IMG/VR virus record: IMGVR_UViG_3300031162_000808
Coordinates: 1-42,680 of that record
Reading direction: 5' to 3' (one strand)
DNA: 42,680 nucleotides
Source of the DNA: a virus
Position 1 is the first letter of the stretch; every line of letters begins with the position of its first letter. The translations under genes were made by a program, and so were the position numbers. This document shows positions 6,331 through 41,678 of the stretch, piece after piece. The notes beneath the pieces are model-generated. The model had not been told where the DNA came from and did not search any database. It worked only from the letters and a program-made list of their open reading frames with translations.

Positions 6331-6613
6331 AGTTGAAACAGAAGCAGAAGTTGGTCCAGAAGATGTTAGGCAGGATGCCATCAGAGATATGATGGACAAG
6401 TGGGCTAACGGAGAACTAACTGACGCACAAGATTCTTTTAATGGAATCATGAATGTTCGCGCTGATGAGTTAGTTGCTGATAAAAAGGCAGACATTGCCG
6501 CTGCTATATATAACGATGCGATTGAAACTGACGTTGAATATGCAGATGCATATGACGAACATGAGCTACCGGAAACTGAATCAGAGGCGGACAAGCAAGA
6601 TGAAGAAATTTAA
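6323..6613 (+). CDS. Small acidic prohead-core candidate (gp67 position)
   Basis: This 96-aa protein is very acidic (Glu/Asp throughout, especially the last 25 residues) and has a helical middle (ADELVADKKADIAAAIYNDAIE). It overlaps the end of gene 20. In T4 this place is held by gene 67, a small acidic internal core protein cleaved by gp21. The role is inferred from position, size and charge; no specific motif is seen. It overlaps the following gene by 14 nt. Confidence 0.6.
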   Translation: MSEVETEAEVGPEDVRQDAIRDMMDKWANGELTDAQDSFNGIMNVRADELVADKKADIAAAIYNDAIETDVEYADAYDEHELPETESEADKQDEEI

Positions 6614-14194: not shown

Positions 14195-15684
14195 TGATAA
14201 CAGTGACTAAAAAGAATGAAGTTTATCTGATTGTAGATTGCGATGTCAGCACTCTACAGGAGATCAATGACTTCTTTACTTTTGAAGTACCAGGCGCACG
14301 ATTCATGCCTGCGTACAAGTCACGCATGTGGGACGGCAAAGCTAGATTGTTCAACATCTATGCTAAAGAATTACCAGTTGGATTGTTATCATATCTTGAA
14401 GGATTCGCAAAGCAACTAGAATACTCAATAAGTATAAATATCGACGTTATCGGCGATCCGGTATCAAACTCATATATCGAAAACTTTACAAAGGAGTTAA
14501 ATCTACACACTAATGGCAAATCAATCGAAGCCCGTGATTACCAAATTGAAGCTGCGTCTACTGCGATTCGCTCAGGACGCCAACTCTTACTTAGCCCCAC
14601 TAGCAGTGGTAAGTCTCTCATTCTTTTTACCCTGGTTCGTTATTATCAGCGTTTAGGAAAAAAACAACTCTTAGTTGTCCCGACCACTTCATTAGTGGAG
14701 CAGATGTACGGAGACTTTCAAGACTATGCATCTGAAACAAATTGGCAAGCATCTGAAAATGTCCATCGTATATACGGTGGTAAAGAAAAATCAAATGAAT
14801 TTCCAATCACAGTAACAACCTGGCAATCCATATATAAGTTCCCAAAGAAATGGTTTGAGAAATTTGATGTTGTATATGGGGATGAGGCGCATTTATTTAA
14901 AGCAAAATCACTGACTAGCATTATGAATAAATGTGAGAATGCGCCTTATCGATTCGGTGCTACTGGTACGCTTGACGGATCAAAGACACATAAACTGGTA
15001 TTAGAAGGATGCTTCGGACCAGTGATAAATGTCACAACCACAAAAAAACTCATGGACGAAGGCAGTATCGCTAAATTAAAAGTGAACTGCATCGTCCTAC
15101 AATACCCTGACGAAGAAAGGAAAAAAGTCAAGGGTATGACATATCAAGAAGAAATGGACTATCTCGTATCTAATGTTAAGAGAAATGTCATTCTAAGAAA
15201 TCTATCTACCACACAAAAAGGAAACTCACTCGTATTATTTCAATACGTTGAGAAGCATGGCTCGATATTATACGATATGATTAAACGTAAAGTAGCTGAT
15301 GGGCGCCCTGTGTATTTCGTATACGGTGGCACTGACACTGATCAGCGTGAGAAGATTCGCGCATTGACAGAGAAAGCAAATGATGCTATCATCGTTGCGT
15401 CTTACGGTACATTCTCTACAGGCATCAACATAAGAAACTTACATAATGTCATCTTTGCATCACCCAGCAAATCTCGCATAAGAAACTTGCAGTCTATTGG
15501 TAGAGGACTTAGGAAAGGTGATGACAAAACTACATGTAACCTGTATGATGTTGGTGATGATCTGTCTTGGAAGTCCAAGAAGAACTACACGTTGAACCAC
15601 ATGATTGAGCGAATCAAATTATACAATGAAGAAAGTTTTGATTACAAGATTGTGAACCTTGATGTTTATGGGGAAAAGAAATGA
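14194..15684 (+). CDS. uvsW: UvsW ATP-dependent DNA/RNA helicase
   Basis: The 496-aa superfamily 2 helicase (T4 UvsW 503 aa) unwinds R-loops and branched DNA and shifts the phage from origin to recombination-dependent replication. The N-terminal substrate domain has the family hallmark YKSRMWDGKARLF (residues 41-53). Motor motifs are Walker A SPTSSGKS (134-141), DEAH (230-233), GATGT (255-259) and QSIGRGLRKG near the end. It starts on the last base of uvsY, and the next gene overlaps its stop by four bases. The identification is firm. Confidence 0.96.
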   Translation: MITVTKKNEVYLIVDCDVSTLQEINDFFTFEVPGARFMPAYKSRMWDGKARLFNIYAKELPVGLLSYLEGFAKQLEYSISINIDVIGDPVSNSYIENFTKELNLHTNGKSIEARDYQIEAASTAIRSGRQLLLSPTSSGKSLILFTLVRYYQRLGKKQLLVVPTTSLVEQMYGDFQDYASETNWQASENVHRIYGGKEKSNEFPITVTTWQSIYKFPKKWFEKFDVVYGDEAHLFKAKSLTSIMNKCENAPYRFGATGTLDGSKTHKLVLEGCFGPVINVTTTKKLMDEGSIAKLKVNCIVLQYPDEERKKVKGMTYQEEMDYLVSNVKRNVILRNLSTTQKGNSLVLFQYVEKHGSILYDMIKRKVADGRPVYFVYGGTDTDQREKIRALTEKANDAIIVASYGTFSTGINIRNLHNVIFASPSKSRIRNLQSIGRGLRKGDDKTTCNLYDVGDDLSWKSKKNYTLNHMIERIKLYNEESFDYKIVNLDVYGEKK

Positions 15685-16577
15685 ACGTGAAAGCCTACAT
15701 CATATCTTACTTCGGTAGTAAGGATCAGCCAGAAGCCAGAAGCATCCGTTTAGAAAATCACAAAAAGCAGATTGAATTCTGGCAAAACACTTGCCCTAAT
15801 ATGCAAATTAAAGTTTTAGCACAAGACTATTACGCGGATGAATATATACCTGGCGTTGAGTATTTGCCGCATGCTTTGGTTCCGCCTGGAAAAGCTAGAA
15901 ATCTATTGCTTGAGGCTTTCTATGCAGATAGCACACATGAGTGGGCTTTGTTTATGGACAACGATGCTATACTAAAAGAACATGCAGAATTCCCACACAC
16001 AGGTATTAATATATGTGACGTAATCACTGACTACCCAGAGAATTTTGAGGGAGTTGATCTGTTCTTCCCTCACTGGGACGGTAGACCGGGAGACGGCGCA
16101 TTCAAAGACAAGTACAGCAATCTTGATAAAAATTATCTCAATGTTAAATGGAACGAGGAGTTGTGCTTCGATAGAAAGTTTGGATCTATGAAAGGTACGA
16201 TGTTCTTTCTAAGAAAAAATAATGCCAAGGTCATGTTCAGAGAAGAGTTTGATTATGTAGATGGGCAGTTAGTAGTAGGCGAAGATGATTTCTTTGCACT
16301 TGAATGTGCTATGAATAGTTATGGTACTTACATTCTAAGAAACATTATGTTGAAGGAGTTCACATCTCCTAGTACACACGCTGGAGCACAGAACACTCGT
16401 AAAGCAGAGATGGATAAGGGTGATAAGATCTTTAGTAAAGTATATGGTTTGCCTGCAAGTAGAGGGCAGTGGTATAAATATGTAGGAAGACGATACGGGA
16501 TATATCTTGACAAGAGAATAACAAGGCCATATACAAAAAACTATGTTGTTCACACTTTGGAGTCGCTTTTCGCATGA
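15681..16577 (+). CDS. GT-A-fold glycosyltransferase, substrate unknown
   Basis: This 298-aa protein looks like a nucleotide-sugar-dependent transferase. It has an N-terminal Rossmann-like start (VKAYIISYFGS), a metal-binding DxD-type motif in ALFMDNDA (93-95), and an acidic EDDFFALE (201-208) where the catalytic base would be expected. A PPGKARNLLLEAF segment (68-80) resembles the donor-binding loop of GT2-like enzymes. It overlaps both neighbours by four bases (ATGA junctions), so it is co-expressed with uvsW and the LSm-like gene. Whether it modifies DNA, virion protein or host surface cannot be told. Confidence 0.65.
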   Translation: MNVKAYIISYFGSKDQPEARSIRLENHKKQIEFWQNTCPNMQIKVLAQDYYADEYIPGVEYLPHALVPPGKARNLLLEAFYADSTHEWALFMDNDAILKEHAEFPHTGINICDVITDYPENFEGVDLFFPHWDGRPGDGAFKDKYSNLDKNYLNVKWNEELCFDRKFGSMKGTMFFLRKNNAKVMFREEFDYVDGQLVVGEDDFFALECAMNSYGTYILRNIMLKEFTSPSTHAGAQNTRKAEMDKGDKIFSKVYGLPASRGQWYKYVGRRYGIYLDKRITRPYTKNYVVHTLESLFA

Positions 16578-17035: not shown

Positions 17036-17623
17036 GTGAAGACAAAAACGAAGAATGCTCACTACATCGACAACAAAGAATTCTTAAAACAAATTTCTGA
17101 GTATCGAGAAAGGGTGATCACCGCGAAAGAAGCAGATGAGCCTAAGCCTCGTGTCACCAATTATCTCGGTGAATGCATGGTAAAGATTGCAAACCATTTA
17201 GCATACAAATCCAACTTTGTCAATTATACCTTCCGAGATGAAATGATTTTGGATGGCATTGAAAACTGCATCACATATATTGACAACTTCAATCCTGAAA
17301 AATCTAAGAATCCGTTTGCATATTTCACGCAAATTACCTACTATGCTTTTCTGCGCAGAATTCAGAAAGAAAAGAAACAACTAGACATCAAGCAAAAGTA
17401 TATCCGAAGTGTTGACATAGAAGGTATCATTGCGGTTGAGGGTACGACAGGAAACACGGATTATTTAGACTTTCTTCGTAGGCAGGCAGATGATGCTGCA
17501 ATGCTACATGAGAAGCACAAAGACCAGAAGCTGGCTAAACGTAGACCGAAATACTTCGATGATGCGGAGGCAATCAAACTTGCAAAAGAAAAGGTCGAAA
17601 AATTTAAAGATTTGGCTGATTAG
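17036..17623 (+). CDS. 55: Late-transcription sigma factor gp55
   Basis: At 195 aa (T4 gp55 185 aa) this is the small sigma-70 relative that directs host RNA polymerase to TATAAATA late promoters. The visible region-2-like core is FRDEMILDGIENCITYIDNF, then NPFAYFTQITYYAFLRRIQKEKK, the best-conserved stretch of the family. The GTG start is set by the GGAG at 17025-17028; no ATG fits. About 93 bases without a gene lie before it, A/T-rich, with a short palindrome CGCTACATAGCG at 16958-16969. The C-terminus ends KFKDLAD. Confidence 0.93.
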   Translation: MKTKTKNAHYIDNKEFLKQISEYRERVITAKEADEPKPRVTNYLGECMVKIANHLAYKSNFVNYTFRDEMILDGIENCITYIDNFNPEKSKNPFAYFTQITYYAFLRRIQKEKKQLDIKQKYIRSVDIEGIIAVEGTTGNTDYLDFLRRQADDAAMLHEKHKDQKLAKRRPKYFDDAEAIKLAKEKVEKFKDLAD

Positions 17624-17626
17624 TAC

Positions 17627-17655
17627 TTGACACTACATTGGATTGATTGTATAAT
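17627..17655 (+). promoter_or_regulatory. Consensus sigma-70 promoter of the 7-deazaguanine operon
   Basis: TTGACA, 17 bp, TATAAT, followed by GTG. It begins three bases after the gene 55 stop. The queE ATG at 17662 lies six bases after the -10 box, at the expected transcription start, so the mRNA should be leaderless. Confidence 0.92.
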
Positions 17656-17661
17656 GTGCGC

Positions 17662-18549
17662 ATGAATATTAGATACTCCGAGATTTTTTATAGCTTCCAA
17701 GGTGAAGCAGAACTAGCTGGCACACCCACTGCATGGCTTCGATTTTTTGGTTGCAACTTAGAATGCAACGGCTTCGGTCAGAAGAAGCCTGAAGATGAAA
17801 CCACGTGGATACTCCCATACAAAGACTATGACCTGATCAATGTGAAAAAGGTTGAAGATCTTCCTGTGTGGCAGTATGGGTGTGACAGCTCCTACTCATG
17901 GTCAAAAAAGTATAAGCATTTGGCTGAAGACTGCGATGTTGAAGAAGTTTGTAACAGGCTAGAACGAGTGTTGCCTTTCAATAAATTCACACATCCTGTC
18001 ACCGGTCAAGAGAACATGCTTGCTTTTACAGGCGGTGAACCCATGTTACGCCAGAAGCAGATGAAGGCAATCGTCAACGAGTTTCTGATTCGCGGTAACC
18101 CACCTAAGATAATCACTGTAGAAACAAACGGTACAAAACCACTGAAGCCTGAATTGCGAGATTTCATCAACGTGTATCTCGCGGATATGGGTATACGTTG
18201 GCATTGGGCTATTAGTCCTAAGACGTTGTTTACTGCTGGTGAGAAAGGCAAAATCATGCCAGATATCTACGTCGATTACTTGCAGGCAACACGAAGCACA
18301 GGCATCATAAAATTTGTATGTAACGGCACAGAGAATTCTTGGAACGAGATTGATTACTGGTGTCGCAAAACAAATGCGCTGGCTGATTCAAATGAGATTC
18401 CTCATCCAGAAGTTTGGATAATGCCTGTAGGTGCTACAAAAGAGGAGCAAGAACAGGTTGCTGACATTTGTATGGAGGCGATGTGTCGTGGATATAAAGT
18501 GGCTACAAGAAATCATAGCTACGTTTTCGGCAATGCGATAGGTACATAA
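17662..18549 (+). CDS. queE: 7-carboxy-7-deazaguanine synthase QueE (phage type)
   Basis: A radical SAM enzyme that turns 6-carboxytetrahydropterin into 7-carboxy-7-deazaguanine. The 295-aa product has the family opening SFQGEAELAGTPTAWLRFFGCNLEC (seen as SFQGE at 11-15 and FFGC at 28-31), the SAM-binding FTGGEPMLRQ and a TNGT motif. The iron-sulfur Cys are unusual: Cys31 and Cys35 are followed by the third, Cys74 in GCDSSYSW, only after a 38-residue insertion, where the canonical pattern is CX3CX2C. This looks like a phage subfamily, not damage. ATG 17662 is chosen over TTG 17647, which lies upstream of the -10 box. Its stop overlaps the next start (TAATG). Confidence 0.93.
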   Translation: MNIRYSEIFYSFQGEAELAGTPTAWLRFFGCNLECNGFGQKKPEDETTWILPYKDYDLINVKKVEDLPVWQYGCDSSYSWSKKYKHLAEDCDVEEVCNRLERVLPFNKFTHPVTGQENMLAFTGGEPMLRQKQMKAIVNEFLIRGNPPKIITVETNGTKPLKPELRDFINVYLADMGIRWHWAISPKTLFTAGEKGKIMPDIYVDYLQATRSTGIIKFVCNGTENSWNEIDYWCRKTNALADSNEIPHPEVWIMPVGATKEEQEQVADICMEAMCRGYKVATRNHSYVFGNAIGT

Positions 18550-18941: not shown

Positions 18942-19507
18942 TAGCATTTGGTGACAGTTACACCTCGGGTCTAAATAAACCAGACCCGAACAATCGTTAC
19001 TATGTCACACCTTTTGTTGAGCATATTGCGAATCGGTTGGGATATGATCTAGTAAATTATGGTATAGATGGAAACTCAAATCCCGCAATTGCTAGCCAGA
19101 TAATGGCGCATGATTTTAAGGAAGATGACTTTGCGCTTGTAACATGGAGTGGGTTATCTAGGGATTGGGACTGGGATCCTGACAAGTTCCGATTTGTGAA
19201 AGCGAATCTTAGGGTAAGAAACGGTAGACCAACGGATGTTTGTTGCTACATGTCAGAGTTTTCTATCAGATCGGCAGAAAATTACTTGACAAAGAATTCA
19301 GTTTCGTTTATAATGTGCTCTGGGTTCATAGAACACTTTGCGATTTCATCTGAGAATTGGAGTCATTGGATGTCAGGTACCCTAAAAGAATTATGTGAAG
19401 ATGATCTGGAATTGTGTCAACATCCTAGCGCGGGTGGGCATATTAAAATTGCAGATGGTATATTAAAAGATGTGGAGAGCAGGTTGAATGATAAGCACTA
19501 CTATTAA
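18929..19507 (+). CDS. SGNH/GDSL-hydrolase-like protein 1
   Basis: The 192-aa protein opens TIVAFGDSYTSG, the block I nucleophile motif (Ser10) of SGNH hydrolases. It then shows an Asn-containing YGIDGNSN (44-51) in place of block II/III, and an HPSAGGH near residue 170 that could hold the catalytic His. These enzymes remove acyl groups from sugars, lipids or peptides. The substrate is unknown; as part of the deazaguanine operon it may trim an acyl group from a modified precursor, or may be unrelated. A second SGNH-like gene lies at 25577. A consensus promoter lies inside it (19286-19314). Confidence 0.65.
   Translation: MGTIVAFGDSYTSGLNKPDPNNRYYVTPFVEHIANRLGYDLVNYGIDGNSNPAIASQIMAHDFKEDDFALVTWSGLSRDWDWDPDKFRFVKANLRVRNGRPTDVCCYMSEFSIRSAENYLTKNSVSFIMCSGFIEHFAISSENWSHWMSGTLKELCEDDLELCQHPSAGGHIKIADGILKDVESRLNDKHYY
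19286..19314 (+). promoter_or_regulatory. Internal consensus sigma-70 promoter upstream of folE
   Basis: TTGACA, 17 bp, TATAAT, followed by GTG, inside the SGNH gene. A start near 19321 would give a leader of about 165 bases to folE and everything downstream. Confidence 0.7.
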
Positions 19508-20165
19508 AAACAGAATTGAGGCTGATGGTAATCGGTACTACGCTGCTGATAACATCTCAGAATTTATTGAAGAAGGCGAACATGATTTGCTGATTGATGA
19601 ACTATCAATTAAATTTGAGGGTGTGCTACAGTCTCTTATCATCGACACTGAAGATGATCCGAATAGTATGGGTACTGCGAAACGATTAGCAAAAATGTAT
19701 GTCAATGAAATTATGTCTGGTCGCTACTATCCTGCTCCGAGAGTAACATCATTTCCTAATGATGGTAAGTATGATCAACTTATTGTTGTTCGCAGTGATA
19801 TACGGAGCATGTGTTCACATCATCATCAACCTGTATCAGGAGTGTGCTATATCGCGTGTATGCCAGGTGATCGCGTTATAGGGCTATCAAAATACACACG
19901 CATTGCCCAGCATTTATCACAGCGCGGGCATTTACAAGAAGAACTCACTGAAATGATCGCAGCACAAATTGAAGCACTTACCGCTTCTAAGGCAGTTGGT
20001 GTTTACATTCGTGCTAGACATGGTTGCTGTGAAAATCGAGGCATCATGTCATCTAACAGCGCAACGCAAACGACTGTACTCAAAGGCGAACTAAAAACAA
20101 ATCCCGCATTGAAGAGTGAATTCATGCACAATGTACAAATACAGGAGACATTAGGTGCCAGTTAA
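19488..20165 (+). CDS. folE: GTP cyclohydrolase I FolE
   Basis: This enzyme converts GTP to 7,8-dihydroneopterin triphosphate, the first step of 7-deazaguanine and folate synthesis. The 225-aa protein keeps the zinc and active-site motifs: CSHHHQPVSG (Cys109, His112 and His113 as in the bacterial CxHH motif), GLSKYTRIAQ, and HGCCENRGI (Cys180/Cys181). The first 40 residues are an ordinary helical N-terminus. It overlaps the SGNH gene by 20 nt and the exonuclease gene by 11 nt. With queD and queE in the same operon its product almost surely goes to the deazaguanine route. Confidence 0.95.
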   Translation: MISTTIKNRIEADGNRYYAADNISEFIEEGEHDLLIDELSIKFEGVLQSLIIDTEDDPNSMGTAKRLAKMYVNEIMSGRYYPAPRVTSFPNDGKYDQLIVVRSDIRSMCSHHHQPVSGVCYIACMPGDRVIGLSKYTRIAQHLSQRGHLQEELTEMIAAQIEALTASKAVGVYIRARHGCCENRGIMSSNSATQTTVLKGELKTNPALKSEFMHNVQIQETLGAS

Positions 20166-20899: not shown

Positions 20900-21435
20900 A
20901 TGTATTCAAACTAAACGAAGATCCTACTGTTGCTGCAATGTTACAGAACGATAAGCATGTGGTGAAGATGGCTACGGAATATGCGCAGTTGCTGTCTACT
21001 GCTCACCGCGTACTTGACGGTGAAATGTATGTCGATAGAACTGCAAACAATCGACGTATCAAGCGTTGGCGCATGACTGATGATGTAATGGAGTCTACGC
21101 TGTACAAGGCTAGCCATATAAATCACCCTTCTAACATATGGACACGCGAAACTACTGCCAACTATCGATGGTTGCATACGTTGTGGGTCGAGACTTGCAA
21201 AGAGTATACCTTTCGTTATGGTAGGGAACATGGCTCATATACCAAACTACACACATTAGTTGCAGACTTACCCGCGAATGTGCCTGAAGGTGTCCTTACT
21301 ACATTGCCGCAAGCAATGCCCGATGATGTCAAAGGGGCTGATGCTGTGTTGGCATATCAAAAATATTATCGTCAATACAAGGCGCATTTCTCTAGGTGGA
21401 CTAACAGAGATACACCGGACTTCATGAATGCATAA
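20896..21435 (+). CDS. Conserved phage protein of unknown function (DKHVVKM family)
   Basis: This 179-aa protein opens MNVFKLNEDP and has DKHVVKMATEYAQLLSTAHRVL at about 19-40, then HINHPSNIWTRETTANYRWLH and a C-terminal AYQKYYRQYKAHF with a Trp. This conserved arrangement of His, Lys, Glu and Trp residues is common to a phage family usually left unnamed, and suggests an enzyme acting on nucleic acid. The function is not established. It lies directly before dpdA and overlaps it by eight bases, so an accessory role in DNA modification is possible. It is coupled to the upstream gene through ATGA. Confidence 0.7.
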   Translation: MNVFKLNEDPTVAAMLQNDKHVVKMATEYAQLLSTAHRVLDGEMYVDRTANNRRIKRWRMTDDVMESTLYKASHINHPSNIWTRETTANYRWLHTLWVETCKEYTFRYGREHGSYTKLHTLVADLPANVPEGVLTTLPQAMPDDVKGADAVLAYQKYYRQYKAHFSRWTNRDTPDFMNA

Positions 21436-22693
21436 GCTAGAGTATGTAGTATCAGGTACAAGCTATATGCGAATTGCAAATCCTCTCGCGGCTCAGGATC
21501 CTGATATTGCTGGCGTGATAAATCAAATCTTTGATAATTTTATCAACAATCATTATAGTCACGATTATTCTATCTTGTATAACGCATATCAGGAAGCAGA
21601 CTATGGTGGGCGATTTGAACCTTACAGAGATCACATCAAAAACATCCACGCAGACTCTGGCGGCTTGCAGATAGTCACGCAAGGCAAGACTATCACCGAA
21701 GAGTTGAAAGAAAAGGTATATCATAATCAAGCAGAATTTGCTGATGTTGGTATGTGTTTTGATGAAATACCTATCATCATGCCAAGTGGTAAGTCAGATA
21801 GAAACGATGTCTCAGGTAGATACTTTGATTTTGAAAACTATGAGGCACTTGCTAAAAAAACAGGCAACAATGTTAGAAAGCAAGTAGAGATATTTGATGC
21901 CAAATCAAGCTCCTGTAAGTCGTTTGCAATCTTACAAGGGAATTGCTATGACACATACATGACTTGGTTTGATAGGCTTCTATCTGAAGTGCCTCAGAGC
22001 GCACACGGCTACATTGGAGGCATTGCTATGGGTGCGGCTGCACTCGGAACAGGGCCGCTTGAGGATGTGAAACGCGCATTCATTGCTAGTCAGGTTCCCT
22101 TTAGAAATGTAGAAGGTAAATTACATCTTCACGTTCTAGGAGTCGGTAGTGTTCGACGCATGATTCCTTATCTGATCTTCTGTCAGAATGGATTGTATGA
22201 TCATGTTGTAATTTCATACGATAGCACCTCGCATGCAAGAGCAGCAGAGAATGGATTGTATTTTATCAATGGTAGAACTATGTCTATAGGTAGAGCGTGG
22301 GGTCCTAACTATGAATTAATTTACAACGATCTCAATTCAGTTATGGATGTAGGTACTACTATTGAAGACTTCTACAATGTGCTAAACAACGGCGTAGGTG
22401 ACTACAAGAAACTAGGCGGCGATCTGTATATGTGGATGCGTGTTAGGACTATGGTTGTTGCAGGTAGTACTCGAAACTTCATGCGAACTATGCAAACCAT
22501 GCTGACTGACAAGGATGCTTTATTGAAGTATTCGGTCAAGATGCGGCTTGAACATCAATTCAGAAACTTGTATAATATCAAATCTGTTGACGATTTCCGT
22601 AGATGGGAATCTGATCAGTATCTGGGAGGTAGTATGAAATCTACCCCTGTACGAACAGACGCACCGCCGTCATTAGAGGATTTGTTTTTATGA
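21428..22693 (+). CDS. dpdA: DpdA-type DNA-guanine transglycosylase with C-terminal clamp-binding-like tail
   Basis: The 421-aa protein is a relative of tRNA-guanine transglycosylase (TGT), of the phage DpdA group that swaps guanine in DNA for a 7-deazaguanine base. Visible motifs are HADSGGLQ (75-81) for substrate binding, a GGIAMGAAALG loop (197-207) where TGT has its GG(L)xxGE loop, HVLGVGS (235-241), and ISYDSTSHA with probable nucleophile Asp265. The zinc-binding CXCXXC of tRNA enzymes is absent. The last seven residues, SLEDLFL, nearly equal the last seven of the phage DNA polymerase. queD, queE and folE in the same operon support the call. The next gene starts in its stop codon. Confidence 0.9.
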   Translation: MHKLEYVVSGTSYMRIANPLAAQDPDIAGVINQIFDNFINNHYSHDYSILYNAYQEADYGGRFEPYRDHIKNIHADSGGLQIVTQGKTITEELKEKVYHNQAEFADVGMCFDEIPIIMPSGKSDRNDVSGRYFDFENYEALAKKTGNNVRKQVEIFDAKSSSCKSFAILQGNCYDTYMTWFDRLLSEVPQSAHGYIGGIAMGAAALGTGPLEDVKRAFIASQVPFRNVEGKLHLHVLGVGSVRRMIPYLIFCQNGLYDHVVISYDSTSHARAAENGLYFINGRTMSIGRAWGPNYELIYNDLNSVMDVGTTIEDFYNVLNNGVGDYKKLGGDLYMWMRVRTMVVAGSTRNFMRTMQTMLTDKDALLKYSVKMRLEHQFRNLYNIKSVDDFRRWESDQYLGGSMKSTPVRTDAPPSLEDLFL

Positions 22694-23046
22694 GAAAAAG
22701 TTTTATTCAGGTTAGTTTTCAGAAAGAAGGCATTCACAAATACCCTGCCGCTGCAAATCTACCTGGTGTAGAATTTTTGCAATATCCACATCGGCATATG
22801 TTTCACTTCTATGTGACTCTTGGAGTGTTTCATGATGACAGAGATGTTGAATTCATACTATTGAAGCGTGAACTTGAAGCGTTATATGATGGCGGGACTT
22901 TGCAGTTAAACAATCAATCATGTGAAATGCTTGCAGATAGTCTGCTTGATTACATGGAAGCATATTACCCTGACAGGGCTTGCAAGGTTGAAGTTTACGA
23001 AGATGATGAGAATGGGGGTATTGTACAGAATGATCTATTTAGTTGA
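22690..23046 (+). CDS. Small T-fold-like (QueD-like) protein beside dpdA
   Basis: The 118-aa product opens KSFIQVSFQKEGIHKYPAA, then has YPHRHMFHFYVTLGVFH followed by DVEFILLKRELEALY and SCEMLADSLLDYM. The order (His cluster on a strand, a (D/E)F-xx-LK helix, then an S-x-E-x-(L/I)A helix) matches the outline of QueD and other T-fold proteins, and phage relatives often lie next to dpdA. A role in deazaguanine processing is inferred. The C-terminus QNDLFS resembles the bacterial clamp-binding consensus. It overlaps dpdA (ATGA) and the glycosyltransferase gene (17 nt). Confidence 0.6.
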   Translation: MRKSFIQVSFQKEGIHKYPAAANLPGVEFLQYPHRHMFHFYVTLGVFHDDRDVEFILLKRELEALYDGGTLQLNNQSCEMLADSLLDYMEAYYPDRACKVEVYEDDENGGIVQNDLFS

Positions 23047-24076
23047 TCTAGAATATTTAGAGACTCGCTACACCGCGCAGTGGAAAGTACATTTTCCTGA
23101 GACTATTAGAAATGCGGGTGAGGCTGTGACTGTCATTGACGGCCCTGATAACATTGCTGAGTGCGCAACACCTGGTGCATTTCTAAATTTCTCTGGTACG
23201 AACATCTACAAGTCTGAGCAAGTCAGAAAAATTGCTGAGTTGTTTCATACAAACAAAGTCAAGCCAGGTGACAAGTTTGTATTCGCTGATGCGTGGCATC
23301 CAGGTATAATTAACTTAAAATACATGTCACAGTTGCTAGGTGTACCTGTAGAAACTCACGGTCTTTGGCATGCAGGTTCGTATGACCCTAATGATTTTCT
23401 AGGTGCGCATGGTGATCAGCGATGGTTGCAGCATGCTGAGAAAAGTTTTTATTATGCATACGACTACAATTGGTTTGCATCGCATGATCACAAGGGTATG
23501 TTCAATCTCTACTTTGGAACCGATAGAACGTATCGAACCGGCTGGCCTATGGATTATTTGATTCATGAGATTACGCATGACTCACGTGGTATCGATAAAG
23601 AGGATGTGATACTATTCCCACATCGATTAGCTGTAGAGAAACAGCCTGAAATATTCAGAGATATGCAAAAACATTTACCTGAGTACACACTGGTGATAGC
23701 ACAAGATGAATCTCTCACTAAAGCAGAGTATCATAAGTTACTTGGTTCAGCCAAGATGGTGTTCTCTGCAAACTTACAAGAGACTCTAGGTATAGGTTGC
23801 TATGAAATTCTATGTGCAGGTGGCATGCCGTTAGTGCCTGATGCTCTATCGTACAGCGAAATGTATAGTCACGAATTCAAATATCCATCTGATTGGACAG
23901 CATCTTTTTCTCACTATGAGCAGCACCGTGAAGAGTTGTTTGACCGTATTCGACAGATGATGACATTCTATGATGATGGTTTGATGATACATAGTATAGA
24001 GAAAAATTATAAGTTTCTAACAGAAGAGTATTTCTCTGCTGGCGGTTTGATTAATGTACTAAGAGGTGAAGAATGA
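23030..24076 (+). CDS. GT-B glycosyltransferase with EX7E motif, in the deazaguanine operon
   Basis: This 348-aa protein has a GT4-like C-terminal domain: FPHRLAVEKQPEIF (196-209), then QETLGIGCYEILCAGG with the retaining EX7E motif (Glu251 and Glu259), and PLVPDALSYSEMY. The PHR start, the E-x-(F/L)G core and a PL-P-x-L-x-Y-x-E end resemble the C-terminal half of the tRNA-queuosine mannosyltransferase family (QTMAN/GTDC1); the N-terminal half shows no clear match. It lies between dpdA and queD, so a 7-deazaguanine in DNA or tRNA is a candidate acceptor. ATG 23030 is chosen because earlier in-frame starts lie deep in the upstream gene. Confidence 0.65.
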   Translation: MIYLVDLEYLETRYTAQWKVHFPETIRNAGEAVTVIDGPDNIAECATPGAFLNFSGTNIYKSEQVRKIAELFHTNKVKPGDKFVFADAWHPGIINLKYMSQLLGVPVETHGLWHAGSYDPNDFLGAHGDQRWLQHAEKSFYYAYDYNWFASHDHKGMFNLYFGTDRTYRTGWPMDYLIHEITHDSRGIDKEDVILFPHRLAVEKQPEIFRDMQKHLPEYTLVIAQDESLTKAEYHKLLGSAKMVFSANLQETLGIGCYEILCAGGMPLVPDALSYSEMYSHEFKYPSDWTASFSHYEQHREELFDRIRQMMTFYDDGLMIHSIEKNYKFLTEEYFSAGGLINVLRGEE

Positions 24077-24519
24077 TGCACTTGTCCACAAAAACATACG
24101 GCCATGAGAGAGGGCTTTCATGTACGTTCCGGCAGCCTAACGCGACACATAGCCATTGCTCCTTGTTGCATGGGTATTCTCTAGGGTTCAAATTTACTTT
24201 TGCGTGTGCAAGTTTAGATGATAAGAACTGGGTCGTAGATTTCGGTGGACTGAAAGAACTTAAATATTGGCTTGAAGATAACTTTGACCACAAACTTGTT
24301 GTCGATGTTAACGATCCAGCAATGAATACGTTTGAGGAGTTAGAAGTAGCTGGGCTCGCATCGCTGACTATACTTGATGGTGTAGGGTGTGAAAAGTTTT
24401 CTGAACACGCATTCGTGTATGCTGACGAAATGGTTAGACACATGACAGACAATCGCTGTTGGGTAACCGAAGTTGAGTGTATGGAGCACGGTGCAAACTC
24501 AGGTGTATTTTACGCATGA
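24073..24519 (+). CDS. queD: 6-carboxytetrahydropterin synthase QueD (phage-type)
   Basis: QueD turns the FolE product into 6-carboxytetrahydropterin. The 148-aa protein has SHCSLLHGYSLGFKF (Cys29 at the catalytic Cys position, His33 as zinc ligand), WVVDFGGLKELKYWLEDNFDHKLVV (Asp72-His73 pair) and the C-terminal EHGANSG. The usual HGH zinc motif is HGY here (Tyr35), and the first zinc His of E. coli QueD is not evident. This variant with SCxFRQ ahead of it is typical of a phage and marine bacterial subgroup, so it is taken as functional. It couples through ATGA to the glycosyltransferase and overlaps gene 47. Confidence 0.88.
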   Translation: MMHLSTKTYGHERGLSCTFRQPNATHSHCSLLHGYSLGFKFTFACASLDDKNWVVDFGGLKELKYWLEDNFDHKLVVDVNDPAMNTFEELEVAGLASLTILDGVGCEKFSEHAFVYADEMVRHMTDNRCWVTEVECMEHGANSGVFYA

Positions 24520-34422: not shown

Positions 34423-35079
34423 ATGAAAATCTCGAAGTCCACTCTGGACATTCTAAAAAACTATGCTAGTATCAATACGAACATTCTTGTTCGTGAGGGC
34501 AACACCCTAGCAACGATTAGCACAGGGAAAAACATTTTCTCTCGCGTTACAATTCCCGAGACCTTTGACCGCGAGTTTGCGATTTACGATCTCAATAGTC
34601 TGTTAGCACTTCTCACTTTGATGGAAGATACTGATGTTGCATTCGGTGACAGTAGTATTACTATTGGTGCAAATCGGAGTCAGTTTGAATACTATTATGC
34701 GGATCCTAGCATTGTGGTTGCGGCTCCTAATAAAACAATTGAGGTGGACGAGCATTACAAGTTTACTTTGACTGCTGAAGAAGTGACAATGGTAATGAAG
34801 GCTGCTGCAATTGTTTCCGCGCCAATGCTTAGTGTAGTTGCTAAGGGCGGCACAGTGACATTATCAGTCGGTGACCCTTCAACTCCTAAGAGCAACACTT
34901 TCAGGCATGTGATAGGCGAAAGTGATCTTGACTTTGATTGCCGTCTCGCAGTAGAGAACTTCAAGGTGATCACAGGCGAATATGATGTTACGCTTTCAAA
35001 GAAAAAATTCATGTACTTGGCTAGTACTGCATCTGATATGAAGTATTGGTTGGCACTTGAACCTAGCTCGGTAATTTAG
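34423..35079 (+). CDS. 45: Sliding clamp gp45
   Basis: The 218-aa protein (T4 gp45 228 aa) is the trimeric ring that tethers gp43 to DNA and also activates late transcription by contacting gp55. The family segments visible are MKISKSTLDILKNYASIN, FAIYDLNSLLALLTLM (residues 50-66) and the second-domain YKFTLTAEEVTMVMKAA. The C-terminal FMYLASTASDMKYWLALE matches the usual end. It follows a promoter of early type and is followed by a peroxiredoxin in place of the clamp loader. Confidence 0.94.
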   Translation: MKISKSTLDILKNYASINTNILVREGNTLATISTGKNIFSRVTIPETFDREFAIYDLNSLLALLTLMEDTDVAFGDSSITIGANRSQFEYYYADPSIVVAAPNKTIEVDEHYKFTLTAEEVTMVMKAAAIVSAPMLSVVAKGGTVTLSVGDPSTPKSNTFRHVIGESDLDFDCRLAVENFKVITGEYDVTLSKKKFMYLASTASDMKYWLALEPSSVI

Positions 35080-35760: not shown

Positions 35761-36693
35761 ATGTCAGATGAATTCTTGTGGGTTGAAAAATACCGCCCAC
35801 GGACATTAGAAGAATGTATTTTGCCTGACGAGCAGAAACGGGTATTTCAGCAGTTTATCGAGGCTGGGGAAATTCCTAACATGCTTCTCTGCGGAACAGC
35901 AGGTACAGGTAAGACTACTGTTGCCCGGGCTCTCTGCAATGAACTCGGCTGCGATTACATTGTAATCAACGGATCCGAAGAATCAGGCATCGATGTTCTC
36001 AGAACGAAGATCAAAGGCTTTGCTAGTACAGTTTCATTTGAAGGCAAGCCTAAGGTTGTTATCTTAGACGAGGCAGATTATCTGAATCCGAACTCTACTC
36101 AGCCTGCGTTACGCGCATTCATTGAAGAGTTTTCTAATAACTGTAGGTTCATCTTTACTTGCAACTTCAAAAATCGAATCATTGCTCCTTTGCATAGTAG
36201 GACTACTGTGATCGAATTCAAACTGGTGAATGGTCAGAAGAAAAAGATGGCTGGACTGTTTCACAAGCGAATGATGGATATTCTCAAGAAAGAGAAGGTA
36301 GAGTACAATGACAAGGTGCTTGCTGAACTGCTGATGAAGCATTTCCCTGACTATCGTAGGGTGCTGAACGAGCTACAACGCTATGGTGCTGGCGGTGTGA
36401 TTGACGAGGGTGTACTGAGTAATCTAGCGGAACTTAGCACTAAGGCTCTCGTAGACGCCCTTAGAGACAAGGACTTTAAGAAGATGCGACAGTGGGTCGC
36501 TAACAGTGTAGACTCTGACCCTCAGTCAGTGTATCGTAAGGTATATGATACACTGATTCCTAAGGTCAAGCAAGTCCCGCAGTTAGTGCTAATCATTGCT
36601 GACTATCAGTATAAGGCGGCATTTGTCGCCGATCAAGAAATAAATCTTACTGCTTGTCTAACGGAGATCATGGCGAATGTCGAGCTATCTTGA
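35761..36693 (+). CDS. 44: Clamp-loader large subunit gp44
   Basis: The 310-aa AAA+ ATPase (T4 gp44 319 aa) opens gp45 and loads it on primer junctions. It starts with the classic WVEKYRPRTLEE, then Walker A GTAGTGKTT (45-53), Walker B VVILDEADYL (99-108), and sensor 1 in FIFTCNFKNRI. The Arg finger region SRTTVIEF follows. It overlaps gene 62 by 17 nt. The identification is firm. Confidence 0.97.
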   Translation: MSDEFLWVEKYRPRTLEECILPDEQKRVFQQFIEAGEIPNMLLCGTAGTGKTTVARALCNELGCDYIVINGSEESGIDVLRTKIKGFASTVSFEGKPKVVILDEADYLNPNSTQPALRAFIEEFSNNCRFIFTCNFKNRIIAPLHSRTTVIEFKLVNGQKKKMAGLFHKRMMDILKKEKVEYNDKVLAELLMKHFPDYRRVLNELQRYGAGGVIDEGVLSNLAELSTKALVDALRDKDFKKMRQWVANSVDSDPQSVYRKVYDTLIPKVKQVPQLVLIIADYQYKAAFVADQEINLTACLTEIMANVELS

Positions 36694-37129
36694 AGAGTTA
36701 GGCAAACCTGCTGAACAGTACGACGAGGAGTCTTTCAAAGAAAAGAAAAAGGCAATCAGCCCTTTCGATTTTGCGAACACGATAAATCATAGCAAAGAAA
36801 ATCTTATTGTTGATGACTGGAGCGAAAAGCAATACAATCCTTTCATCGTCAATAAGGCTATGAGCTATGGTCCTGACACGGTGATTGCTGCGAATGAAAT
36901 GAACTCTCGTCCGCATCTTGACAAAAAATTGCAATATGATTTTCTGCTGAATGTTGTTCGACCTAAGAAACGATACAACAAATGGATGAAGCCTGAAAAA
37001 GAAGAACTGCTTGGCATTGTAAAGGAATATTATGGTTATAGTGATACTAAAGCGGCCGATGCATTGCGCATCCTGACTGATAAAAACATCGAGGTGATTA
37101 AGCAGAGGTTGAACAAAGGGGGGCGCTAA
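36677..37129 (+). CDS. 62: Clamp-loader small subunit gp62
   Basis: The 150-aa protein (T4 gp62 187 aa) is the structural partner of gp44. Similarity to T4 is local but clear: YNPFIVNKAMSYGPDTVIAANEMN, where T4 has a FMVENALSQFPE..YAMN stretch, and RPKKRYNKWMKPEKEELLGI, where T4 has RGKRYGKWAK. The first 40 residues are charged, and the C-terminus lacks the last 30 or so residues of T4 gp62. Its overlap with gene 44 is that of all T4-like phages. Confidence 0.88.
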   Translation: MSSYLEELGKPAEQYDEESFKEKKKAISPFDFANTINHSKENLIVDDWSEKQYNPFIVNKAMSYGPDTVIAANEMNSRPHLDKKLQYDFLLNVVRPKKRYNKWMKPEKEELLGIVKEYYGYSDTKAADALRILTDKNIEVIKQRLNKGGR

Positions 37130-39152: not shown

Positions 39153-39181
39153 TTGACACCCCCTTTATTATGATGTATAAT
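39153..39181 (+). promoter_or_regulatory. Consensus sigma-70 promoter of DNA polymerase
   Basis: TTGACA, 17 bp, TATAAT, followed by GTG. The -35 box directly follows the upstream stop codon, and the polymerase ATG lies seven bases after the -10 box, giving a leaderless transcript. Confidence 0.92.
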
Positions 39182-39188
39182 GTGTGCT

Positions 39189-41678
39189 ATGAAAAACGAA
39201 TTTTACAGCTGGGCTTGGCAGTATGGTAACCAAGTATTCTTGCGTGGTGTGCGCGATGGCAAACGCTTTACTGAAAAGCGAACCTTCAAGCCTACGCTAT
39301 ATGTTCGTGCTGATGGCGCCTCCCCATACAAGGGATTGTATGGGGAGAACATCAAGCCGATTCAATTCGGTGACAACCGTGATGCTAAGGAATTCTTAGA
39401 TAGTTACTCTCAGGTTCAGAACTATCCTATCTATGGACAGACTGACCTGACATATCAATTTCTATCTACTGAGTACACAGGCGATATCGAGTTTGATTTG
39501 TCTCAGTTGTCTATCTGGTCGATGGACATTGAGACTACTGCCGAGACAGGCTTCCCTAGCGTAGATAATCCCACTGACAAAATTCTTCTAATCACGTTGA
39601 TGAACAATCACACGAAGGAGATCATAACATGGGGAGAAGGTGAGTGGAGTCCAGGTCCTGAAACAAAAGATCTGGGTGTCAACTATGTTCCTTGTGCGGA
39701 TGAGATTGAACTGCTTACTAAATTTGGAACATGGTGGGCGAATGAATACCCTGATATCGTTACTGGTTGGAACGTTGAGTTTTTTGATATACCCTATCTC
39801 GTTTCCCGCATGGAGCGGGTCTTTGGTACGGACGCAAAGAATTCTCTATCCCCGTATAACCTGACAAGACGCAAAGGTGTCAAGCGGAACAATCGTGAGG
39901 ATACCACTTACGATATCAAAGGCATCTCAGTACTTGACTATCTGGATCTATATAAGAAGTTTACTTATAGTGCGCAAGAATCATATAAGCTAGATCACAT
40001 TGCATCGGTTGAACTTGGTCATGGTAAACTTGAAAGCGGCTTCGATACTTTCAAGGAGTTTTACGATAAGGACTGGAATCGTTTCATCGACTATAACATC
40101 ATCGACACCAAGTTGATTGATGACTTGGAAGAAAAGATGAAATTGATTGAGCTTATTGCTACAATGACATATGACGCGAAGTCGAACTTCCGTGATACAT
40201 TTTCACCTGTAAGAACCTGGGACTGCTTGCTGTACAATCACTTGCTTGCTAAAAATATTATGATTCCTGCTCGTAAAGATTCGCAGGGTCGTTCTATTGA
40301 AGGTGCGTTTGTGCAAGAGCCAAAGCCAGGGCAATACAATTGGGTGATGGCATTTGATGCGACATCTCTATATCCTTCTATCATCATGCAATACAACATG
40401 TCCCCCGAGACACTCGTACAAGGTATGGCTGATGTGAACGTTGAGGGTATGCTTGAACGCAAGTACAAACTTGATGGCGATTATGCGATTGCTGCTAACG
40501 GTGCTAGATTCACACGCGAAAAACAAGGTCTGTTTCCCGAGATCGTTTCAAAGTTTTTTGATGATCGACAGAAATACAAGAAGCTGATGATTCAAGCGCA
40601 AAACAAATATGAGGAGACAAAGGATCCTGCATATCAGAAGGACATTGCGAAATACAATAACTTTCAGATGGCTAGAAAGATTCAGTTGAACTCACTCTAT
40701 GGTGCAATGGGCAATCAGTACTTCAGATATTATGATGACAGGATTGCTGAAGGCATCACAATGACAGGTCAATTTGTCATCCGAGAGTCTGCGAAGGCAC
40801 TTGATGATTTCTTGAACAATGTCTGTGGCACTGAGGGTAAGATGTACTCATTTTATTCTGACACTGACTCTTGCTACATCACAATGGATGGCGTTGTACA
40901 GAAGTTTCTCACGAATAAAAACAAGGCAAGCATTATCACTGCCCTTGACAAGATTGGCGCAGATCAAATTGAGCCTACGATTGCTAGGGCAATGGATAGT
41001 ATCGCTGAATACACAAATGCTTTTGAACAAAAGATGGACTTCAAGCGTGAGGTTATTGCTGACAAAGGTATCTGGGTAGCTAAGAAACGATATGCACTAA
41101 ACGTGTACGACAACGAAGGTGTGCGTTATGCTGAACCTAAGTTGAAGGTGATGGGCTTAGAGGTCGTTCGGTCATCTACACCTGCTCTAGTGAGGGCGAG
41201 TCTGCGTGAGGCAGTGAAACTTTGTCTCACATCTGACGAGGGTGTGCTGCAAGATTTCGTAGAGAATACATGGCGCGACTTTCAGGAGATGACGCCTGAA
41301 CAAATTGCTTTTCCTCGAGGCTGCAACAACTTAGAGAAATACTCTGATGTTGCTTCAATCTATTCTAAAGGTACTCCTGTGCAGGTTCGCGGCGCACTAA
41401 TGTATAATTATGTCCTGAAGCGTGATAAGCTGACAATGAAGCATGAGCGCATTCAGGATGGCGAGAAGATTAAGTTTCTGTATCTCAAGGAGCCGAATCA
41501 TCTTGGCGAGAACTGCATTGCATTCAACGCTAAACTGCCGCCGGAGTTTGATTTGCACCGATATGTGGACTATGAACTAATGTTTCAGAAAGCATTTATC
41601 GACCCCATGAATACTATTGCAAATGCAATTAATTGGAACCCACGACCCGTTGCGTCACTAGAGGACTTGTTTACATGA
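39189..41678 (+). CDS. 43: Family B DNA polymerase gp43
   Basis: The replicative polymerase, 829 aa (T4 gp43 898 aa). Exonuclease motif I is SMDIETTAE (Asp113, Glu115), polymerase motif A is DATSLYPSI (Asp390), motif B is KIQLNSLYGAMGN, and motif C is YSDTDSC (Asp558, Asp560). The last residues, SLEDLFT, are the clamp-binding tail known from T4 and RB69 gp43. ATG 39189 is used, not ATG 39180, which lies inside the promoter -10 box. The next gene overlaps its stop (ATGA). Confidence 0.97.
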   Translation: MKNEFYSWAWQYGNQVFLRGVRDGKRFTEKRTFKPTLYVRADGASPYKGLYGENIKPIQFGDNRDAKEFLDSYSQVQNYPIYGQTDLTYQFLSTEYTGDIEFDLSQLSIWSMDIETTAETGFPSVDNPTDKILLITLMNNHTKEIITWGEGEWSPGPETKDLGVNYVPCADEIELLTKFGTWWANEYPDIVTGWNVEFFDIPYLVSRMERVFGTDAKNSLSPYNLTRRKGVKRNNREDTTYDIKGISVLDYLDLYKKFTYSAQESYKLDHIASVELGHGKLESGFDTFKEFYDKDWNRFIDYNIIDTKLIDDLEEKMKLIELIATMTYDAKSNFRDTFSPVRTWDCLLYNHLLAKNIMIPARKDSQGRSIEGAFVQEPKPGQYNWVMAFDATSLYPSIIMQYNMSPETLVQGMADVNVEGMLERKYKLDGDYAIAANGARFTREKQGLFPEIVSKFFDDRQKYKKLMIQAQNKYEETKDPAYQKDIAKYNNFQMARKIQLNSLYGAMGNQYFRYYDDRIAEGITMTGQFVIRESAKALDDFLNNVCGTEGKMYSFYSDTDSCYITMDGVVQKFLTNKNKASIITALDKIGADQIEPTIARAMDSIAEYTNAFEQKMDFKREVIADKGIWVAKKRYALNVYDNEGVRYAEPKLKVMGLEVVRSSTPALVRASLREAVKLCLTSDEGVLQDFVENTWRDFQEMTPEQIAFPRGCNNLEKYSDVASIYSKGTPVQVRGALMYNYVLKRDKLTMKHERIQDGEKIKFLYLKEPNHLGENCIAFNAKLPPEFDLHRYVDYELMFQKAFIDPMNTIANAINWNPRPVASLEDLFT

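Follow-up and report, generated by a model that had tools for sequence, protein, structure and literature searches.

The DpdA2-type DNA guanine transglycosylase encoded in the analyzed viral sequence (the window, a stretch of 42,680 nucleotides) ends in nearly the same short peptide as the gp43-type DNA polymerase encoded in the same sequence, and comparison of many phages suggests that such enzymes are tethered to the phage sliding clamp, so that base exchange follows replication. We consider this reading likely (probability about 0.86), although binding to the clamp is inferred from sequence and was not measured. The dpdA gene (21428-22693, + strand, 421 aa) ends in SLEDLFL, with tail codons at 22670-22690 (+), whereas the polymerase gene (39180-41678, +, 832 aa; PF00136, PF03104, phrog_262 with E=0) ends in SLEDLFT, with tail codons at 41655-41675 (+). 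The first-pass annotation had noted the shared ending within 22651-22693 and proposed that a clamp-binding tail would couple guanine exchange to the replication fork. The observation is confirmed and the interpretation is supported, including its expectation that the tail should be conserved in close DpdA homologs; however, coupling to the fork itself is an inference, since a clamp left behind the fork would serve as well.

The window also encodes the proposed docking partner, a gp45-type sliding clamp (34423-35079, +, 218 aa; phrog_223 with E 2e-61, RB69/T4 gp45 with E about 1e-17), as well as a gp62-type clamp loader subunit (36677-37129, +; PF16790, phrog_225) and, judging from sequence and position, a gp44-like clamp loader ATPase (35761-36693, +). 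A gp45-type clamp was also found in the other DpdA genomes that were searched for it. The DpdA protein has no Pfam hit and matches TIGR00430 only weakly, but a confident AlphaFold2 model built from 30 relatives (pLDDT 90.2, pTM 0.89) has a predicted TGT-type fold, with tRNA-guanine transglycosylases (E 3.5e-9) and the DNA preQ0 insertase DpdA (7ui4) as the best solved matches. In contrast, a sequence search of the PDB with the DpdA profile gave nothing useful. The protein is related to those of Vibrio phage nt-1 (tblastn, 31.5% identity, E 4e-32) and KVP40 (E 7e-34), the nt-1 protein being the founding DpdA2 (PMC6884629), and the residues D76 (DSGGLQ) and D265 (YDST) were invariant in 21 sequences. 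Among genes of the 7-deazaguanine precursor pathway, FolE (GTP cyclohydrolase I; 19488-20165, +; PF01227, E 5e-39) and a QueD-like protein of the PTPS family (24073-24519, +; PF01242, E 1e-12) lie nearby. A QueE-like radical SAM protein (17647-18549, +, start codon uncertain) has no Pfam hit and is inferred from its sequence and from annotated QueE genes at the same place in BUCT-ZZ01, while QueC was not seen on this 42.7-kb record.

The C-terminal match is far above chance. The pattern [ST][LMI][DEN]x[LMF]Fx(0,3)-end is met by 7 of 78,090 shuffled C-termini (9e-5) but by 22 of 2,603 ORFs of at least 100 aa in 12 phage genomes or long contigs, against about 0.23 expected. These 22 proteins are 11 gp43, 8 DpdA, two glycosyltransferases and one methyltransferase. 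The pattern was drawn from the two tails first seen, so the independent weight lies in the relatives. In Yut2, ACP17, X1, G003 and G006, only gp43 and DpdA carry the motif (here and below, G and L numbers are our own designations for genomes or contigs and for individual loci, respectively). As a positive control, the same scan of T4 finds only gp43 (SLDFLFG), with gp33 (NTLDFLL) and gp55 (SLDFLYEAND) being close to the pattern. The codons differ between DpdA (TCATTAGAGGATTTGTTT) and gp43 (TCACTAGAGGACTTGTTT) and the preceding residues are unrelated, which argues against recent copying of the gp43 3' end.

The tail was retained in all 83 IMG/VR relatives with an intact 3' end. Since many of these are near-identical, clusters of relatives are more informative: the tail is present in 37 of 42 clusters at 95% identity, 10 of 12 at 60% and 5 of 7 at 45%, and is retained across clusters down to 31% identity with the window protein. 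The positions just before the tail are mostly variable (entropy 1.4-2.5, with one conserved Pro), while S/T, L, E, L and F are near-invariant and the conserved leucine is written with all six Leu codons. L338-L340 have a different, longer C-terminal stretch yet still end in SLDELFG. In the model of the window protein, pLDDT falls to 70 and then 50 over residues 411-421, with a short helix at 416-419, so that the tail is probably flexible. However, the tail is not essential for DpdA2, as the proteins of pf16 (VTLDLMCA), of KVP40-type phages and of nt-1 lack the terminal motif although their gp43 have it. A clade-specific insertion DLS[AS]FFG in KVP40-type DpdA2 resembles the gp43 tail TLESFFG of the same phages and may be an internal clamp motif, but it is only suggestive, because short internal matches are less improbable and nt-1 has none. 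The DNA of nt-1 holds little modification (dPreQ0 about 0.11% of G; PMC6884629), but the missing tail is not retained as an explanation, since a Rosebush-type DpdA (Rhinoforte) also lacks such a tail, while Rosebush DNA carries dPreQ0 at 28% of G (PMC6884629).

Where both genes are on one record, the DpdA and polymerase tails agree in kind. Besides the window pair, these are SLDDLFG/SLEDLFGW in Yut2, TLDELFE/SLDDLFE in ACP17, SLEELFG/SLESLFG in X1 and SLDSFFD/TLDDFFS in BUCT-ZZ01, the last being the only F-type pair. Across 20 enzyme/polymerase pairs, F goes with F (Fisher p 0.0035); however, relatedness was not corrected and the pairs are not fully independent, so this supports the case but does not prove it.

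Other tailed proteins found in wider scans are glycosyltransferases or methyltransferases, whose action on DNA is inferred. Among 2,961 ORFs in 58 DpdA loci, the nine non-DpdA hits are all glycosyltransferase-like. Eight of them are homologs of a window protein (15681-16577, +, 298 aa) that ends in TLESLFA (codons 16554-16574, +) and whose model (pLDDT 76) has a predicted GT-A fold closest to GT2 enzymes such as TarP (E about 2e-7). The ninth, in L019, is a GT-B next to DpdA with the same EGLF ending as its DpdA. The tail of this uncharacterized GT-A-fold family differs with the type of phage, with TLESLFA, TLEGFFE and SLEDLFS in the T4-like group and KNALFSF, KNLLFDF and ESLFSW in other contigs, some of them jumbo-sized; the polymerases of G018 and of the jumbo contig G020 end in NLFDF. 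Another GT-A with a tail was found in L337. In BUCT-ZZ01, a GT-B-like gene (PF13692, below its curated cut-off) overlaps dpdA and ends in SLEDFFND, thus sharing the F-type tail. A scan of viral contigs with this GT-B found no relative. Among methyltransferases, G004 has an FkbM methyltransferase after gp43 ending in TLEDLFT, L265 has a DNA-methylase-like gene after gp43 ending in TLEEFF, with its gp43 ending in TIESFFS, and G020 has a methylase-like gene ending in AFDNFFDL next to a polymerase ending in TFDNLFDF. In contrast, T4 alpha-GT (CFKEQFDIITK), beta-GT and Dam, which we expected to share the tail, do not.

A second family, DpdA1 (9g and CAjan type), is encoded beside or near a DnaN-like processivity factor (phrog_947) and ends instead in a motif of the bacterial clamp type. 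All eight sampled DpdA1 of this group (the gene neighborhood of GH32 was not checked) end in LF or in LF plus one or two residues (9g LQDLFDE, CAjan VMELF, PSASB_03 QMELF, GH32 QPGLF, Dp-1 QRRLF and others), whereas four actinophage DpdA1 without a clamp neighbor in the stretch seen do not. In IMG/VR, 40 of 43 DpdA1 end in LF and 39 match Q-x(1,2)-L-F, many in the shorter Q-x-L-F form, against 5 of 3,409 background ORFs. Bacterial clamp ligands often carry QLxLF at the C-terminus (PMC4549789), so each of the two DpdA families carries a motif that suits its own clamp, which suggests that clamp tethering was gained more than once.

Taken together, we propose that the last seven residues of DpdA are a portable clamp-binding peptide, that a short variable linker joins the catalytic domain to the motif [S/T]-L-[D/E]-x-[L/F]-F, and that this motif docks in the same hydrophobic site of gp45 that the gp43 tail uses. 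The C-termini of T4 gp43, gp55 and gp33 bind gp45 and are interchangeable, and the gp55 motif is likewise preceded by a variable linker (PMC2988020), although these proteins replicate or transcribe DNA rather than exchange bases. By the same logic, DpdA would be held on clamp-bearing, newly made phage DNA, where it would exchange guanine for a 7-deazaguanine made with the neighboring preQ0-pathway genes. Clamp-tethered DNA modification as such is known. T4 alpha-GT, which adds a sugar, co-purifies with gp45 (PMC13216743), and the eukaryotic maintenance methyltransferase DNMT1 is held on newly replicated DNA by a motif that binds another clamp, PCNA (PMC9690074). For DpdA, we found no description of a link to a sliding clamp or to DnaN in the incomplete set of papers searched, in agreement with the first-pass annotation. 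It should be noted that for T4 alpha-GT promoter strength rather than clamp binding set its share of the modification (PMC13216743), so clamp binding need not be the main control. Tethering would explain how an enzyme whose relatives act on tRNA is directed to phage DNA and to the right moment of infection. It is also possible, and in our view somewhat more likely than not, that phage DNA hypermodification is organized around the sliding clamp more generally, with at least two DpdA families, two glycosyltransferase families (GT-A and GT-B fold) and two methyltransferase families having each acquired a peptide fitted to their own phage's clamp, which would then work as a docking bar for base exchange and further decoration of new DNA. 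As scanning phage ORFs for the polymerase's C-terminal peptide picked out glycosyltransferases and methyltransferases here, the tail should also serve to find unknown DNA-modifying enzymes.

One alternative is that the string is a by-product of selection on the DNA, in which a Shine-Dalgarno run (GAGG/GGAG) for the next gene is read in frame as L-E-D/G. In the window, the last codons of DpdA, gp43 and the GT-A gene all hold such a run and overlap the next start as ATGA (for DpdA, a possible run GAGG at 22676-22679, +, and ATG at 22690), and the same is true for most relatives of the marine clade, in which two tail codons are biased by this overlap. However, among 211 ATGA-overlap ORFs with such runs, only DpdA, polymerases and glycosyltransferases have the motif, while the rest end in YVEAQ, NLYQEL, FPWE and so on. 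Furthermore, BUCT-ZZ01, Yut2, ACP17, X1, L049, L194, L323 and L337-L339 have no such run and keep the motif, and the distal L and F are not explained by it. The overlap thus shapes codon choice but not the motif, and this explanation is largely refuted. A functionless or coincidental acidic-hydrophobic C-terminus, for which only the untailed pf16- and KVP40-type DpdA2 speak, has the shuffle rate against it and is refuted by the retention across clusters and the synonymous drift of the codons.

Two further readings accept a functional tail but are also unlikely. The peptide could bind another shared replisome partner, such as the clamp loader gp44/62, SSB or helicase, as only sequence identity with the gp43 tail is known here and gp45 ligands in T4 also include the clamp loader (PMC2988020); yet the interchangeable T4 tails bind gp45, the RB69 gp43 tail was crystallized with gp45, and the DpdA1 tails fit the beta-clamp motif beside a beta-clamp gene, pointing at clamps in both systems. 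Alternatively, DpdA might bind the clamp to compete with or regulate the polymerase or late transcription, for example by slowing the fork while bases are exchanged, given that both proteins carry the same peptide and that gp45 also activates late transcription in T4 (PMC2988020). However, gp45 is a trimer with several sites, and the other tailed proteins found are DNA- or sugar-modifying enzymes rather than regulators.

A third DpdA-like family, with a DSGG motif and no clear Pfam hit, is encoded near 7-deazaguanine genes in PA5oct (L238:5989-7611) and in G020 (227243-228805). The PA5oct protein has an internal SFNSLFD near its C-terminus, beside a polymerase ending in HFDSLFGW, which is suggestive only. 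In G020, the DpdA-like ending GVADLFG and the GT-A ending NALFSF are weak alone, since 3% of ORFs end in [LF]F within the last four residues. Proteins of unknown function with a similar start are encoded near two different DpdA families (window 22922-24076 and G020:224458-225522). In the window, the small ORF after DpdA (22690-23046; phrog_17812, unknown function) ends in QNDLFS, a weak resemblance to the tail, whereas the gp55-like late sigma factor (17036-17623) ends in KFKDLAD, without the clamp-binding tail of T4 gp55. A small ORF of 85 aa starting at 6432 in the DpdA1 locus L386 ends in STQIDLFA, close to the bacterial clamp motif, and the PA5oct polymerase gene (L238:2003-3685) is split in two by a gene annotated as a Hef-like homing endonuclease.
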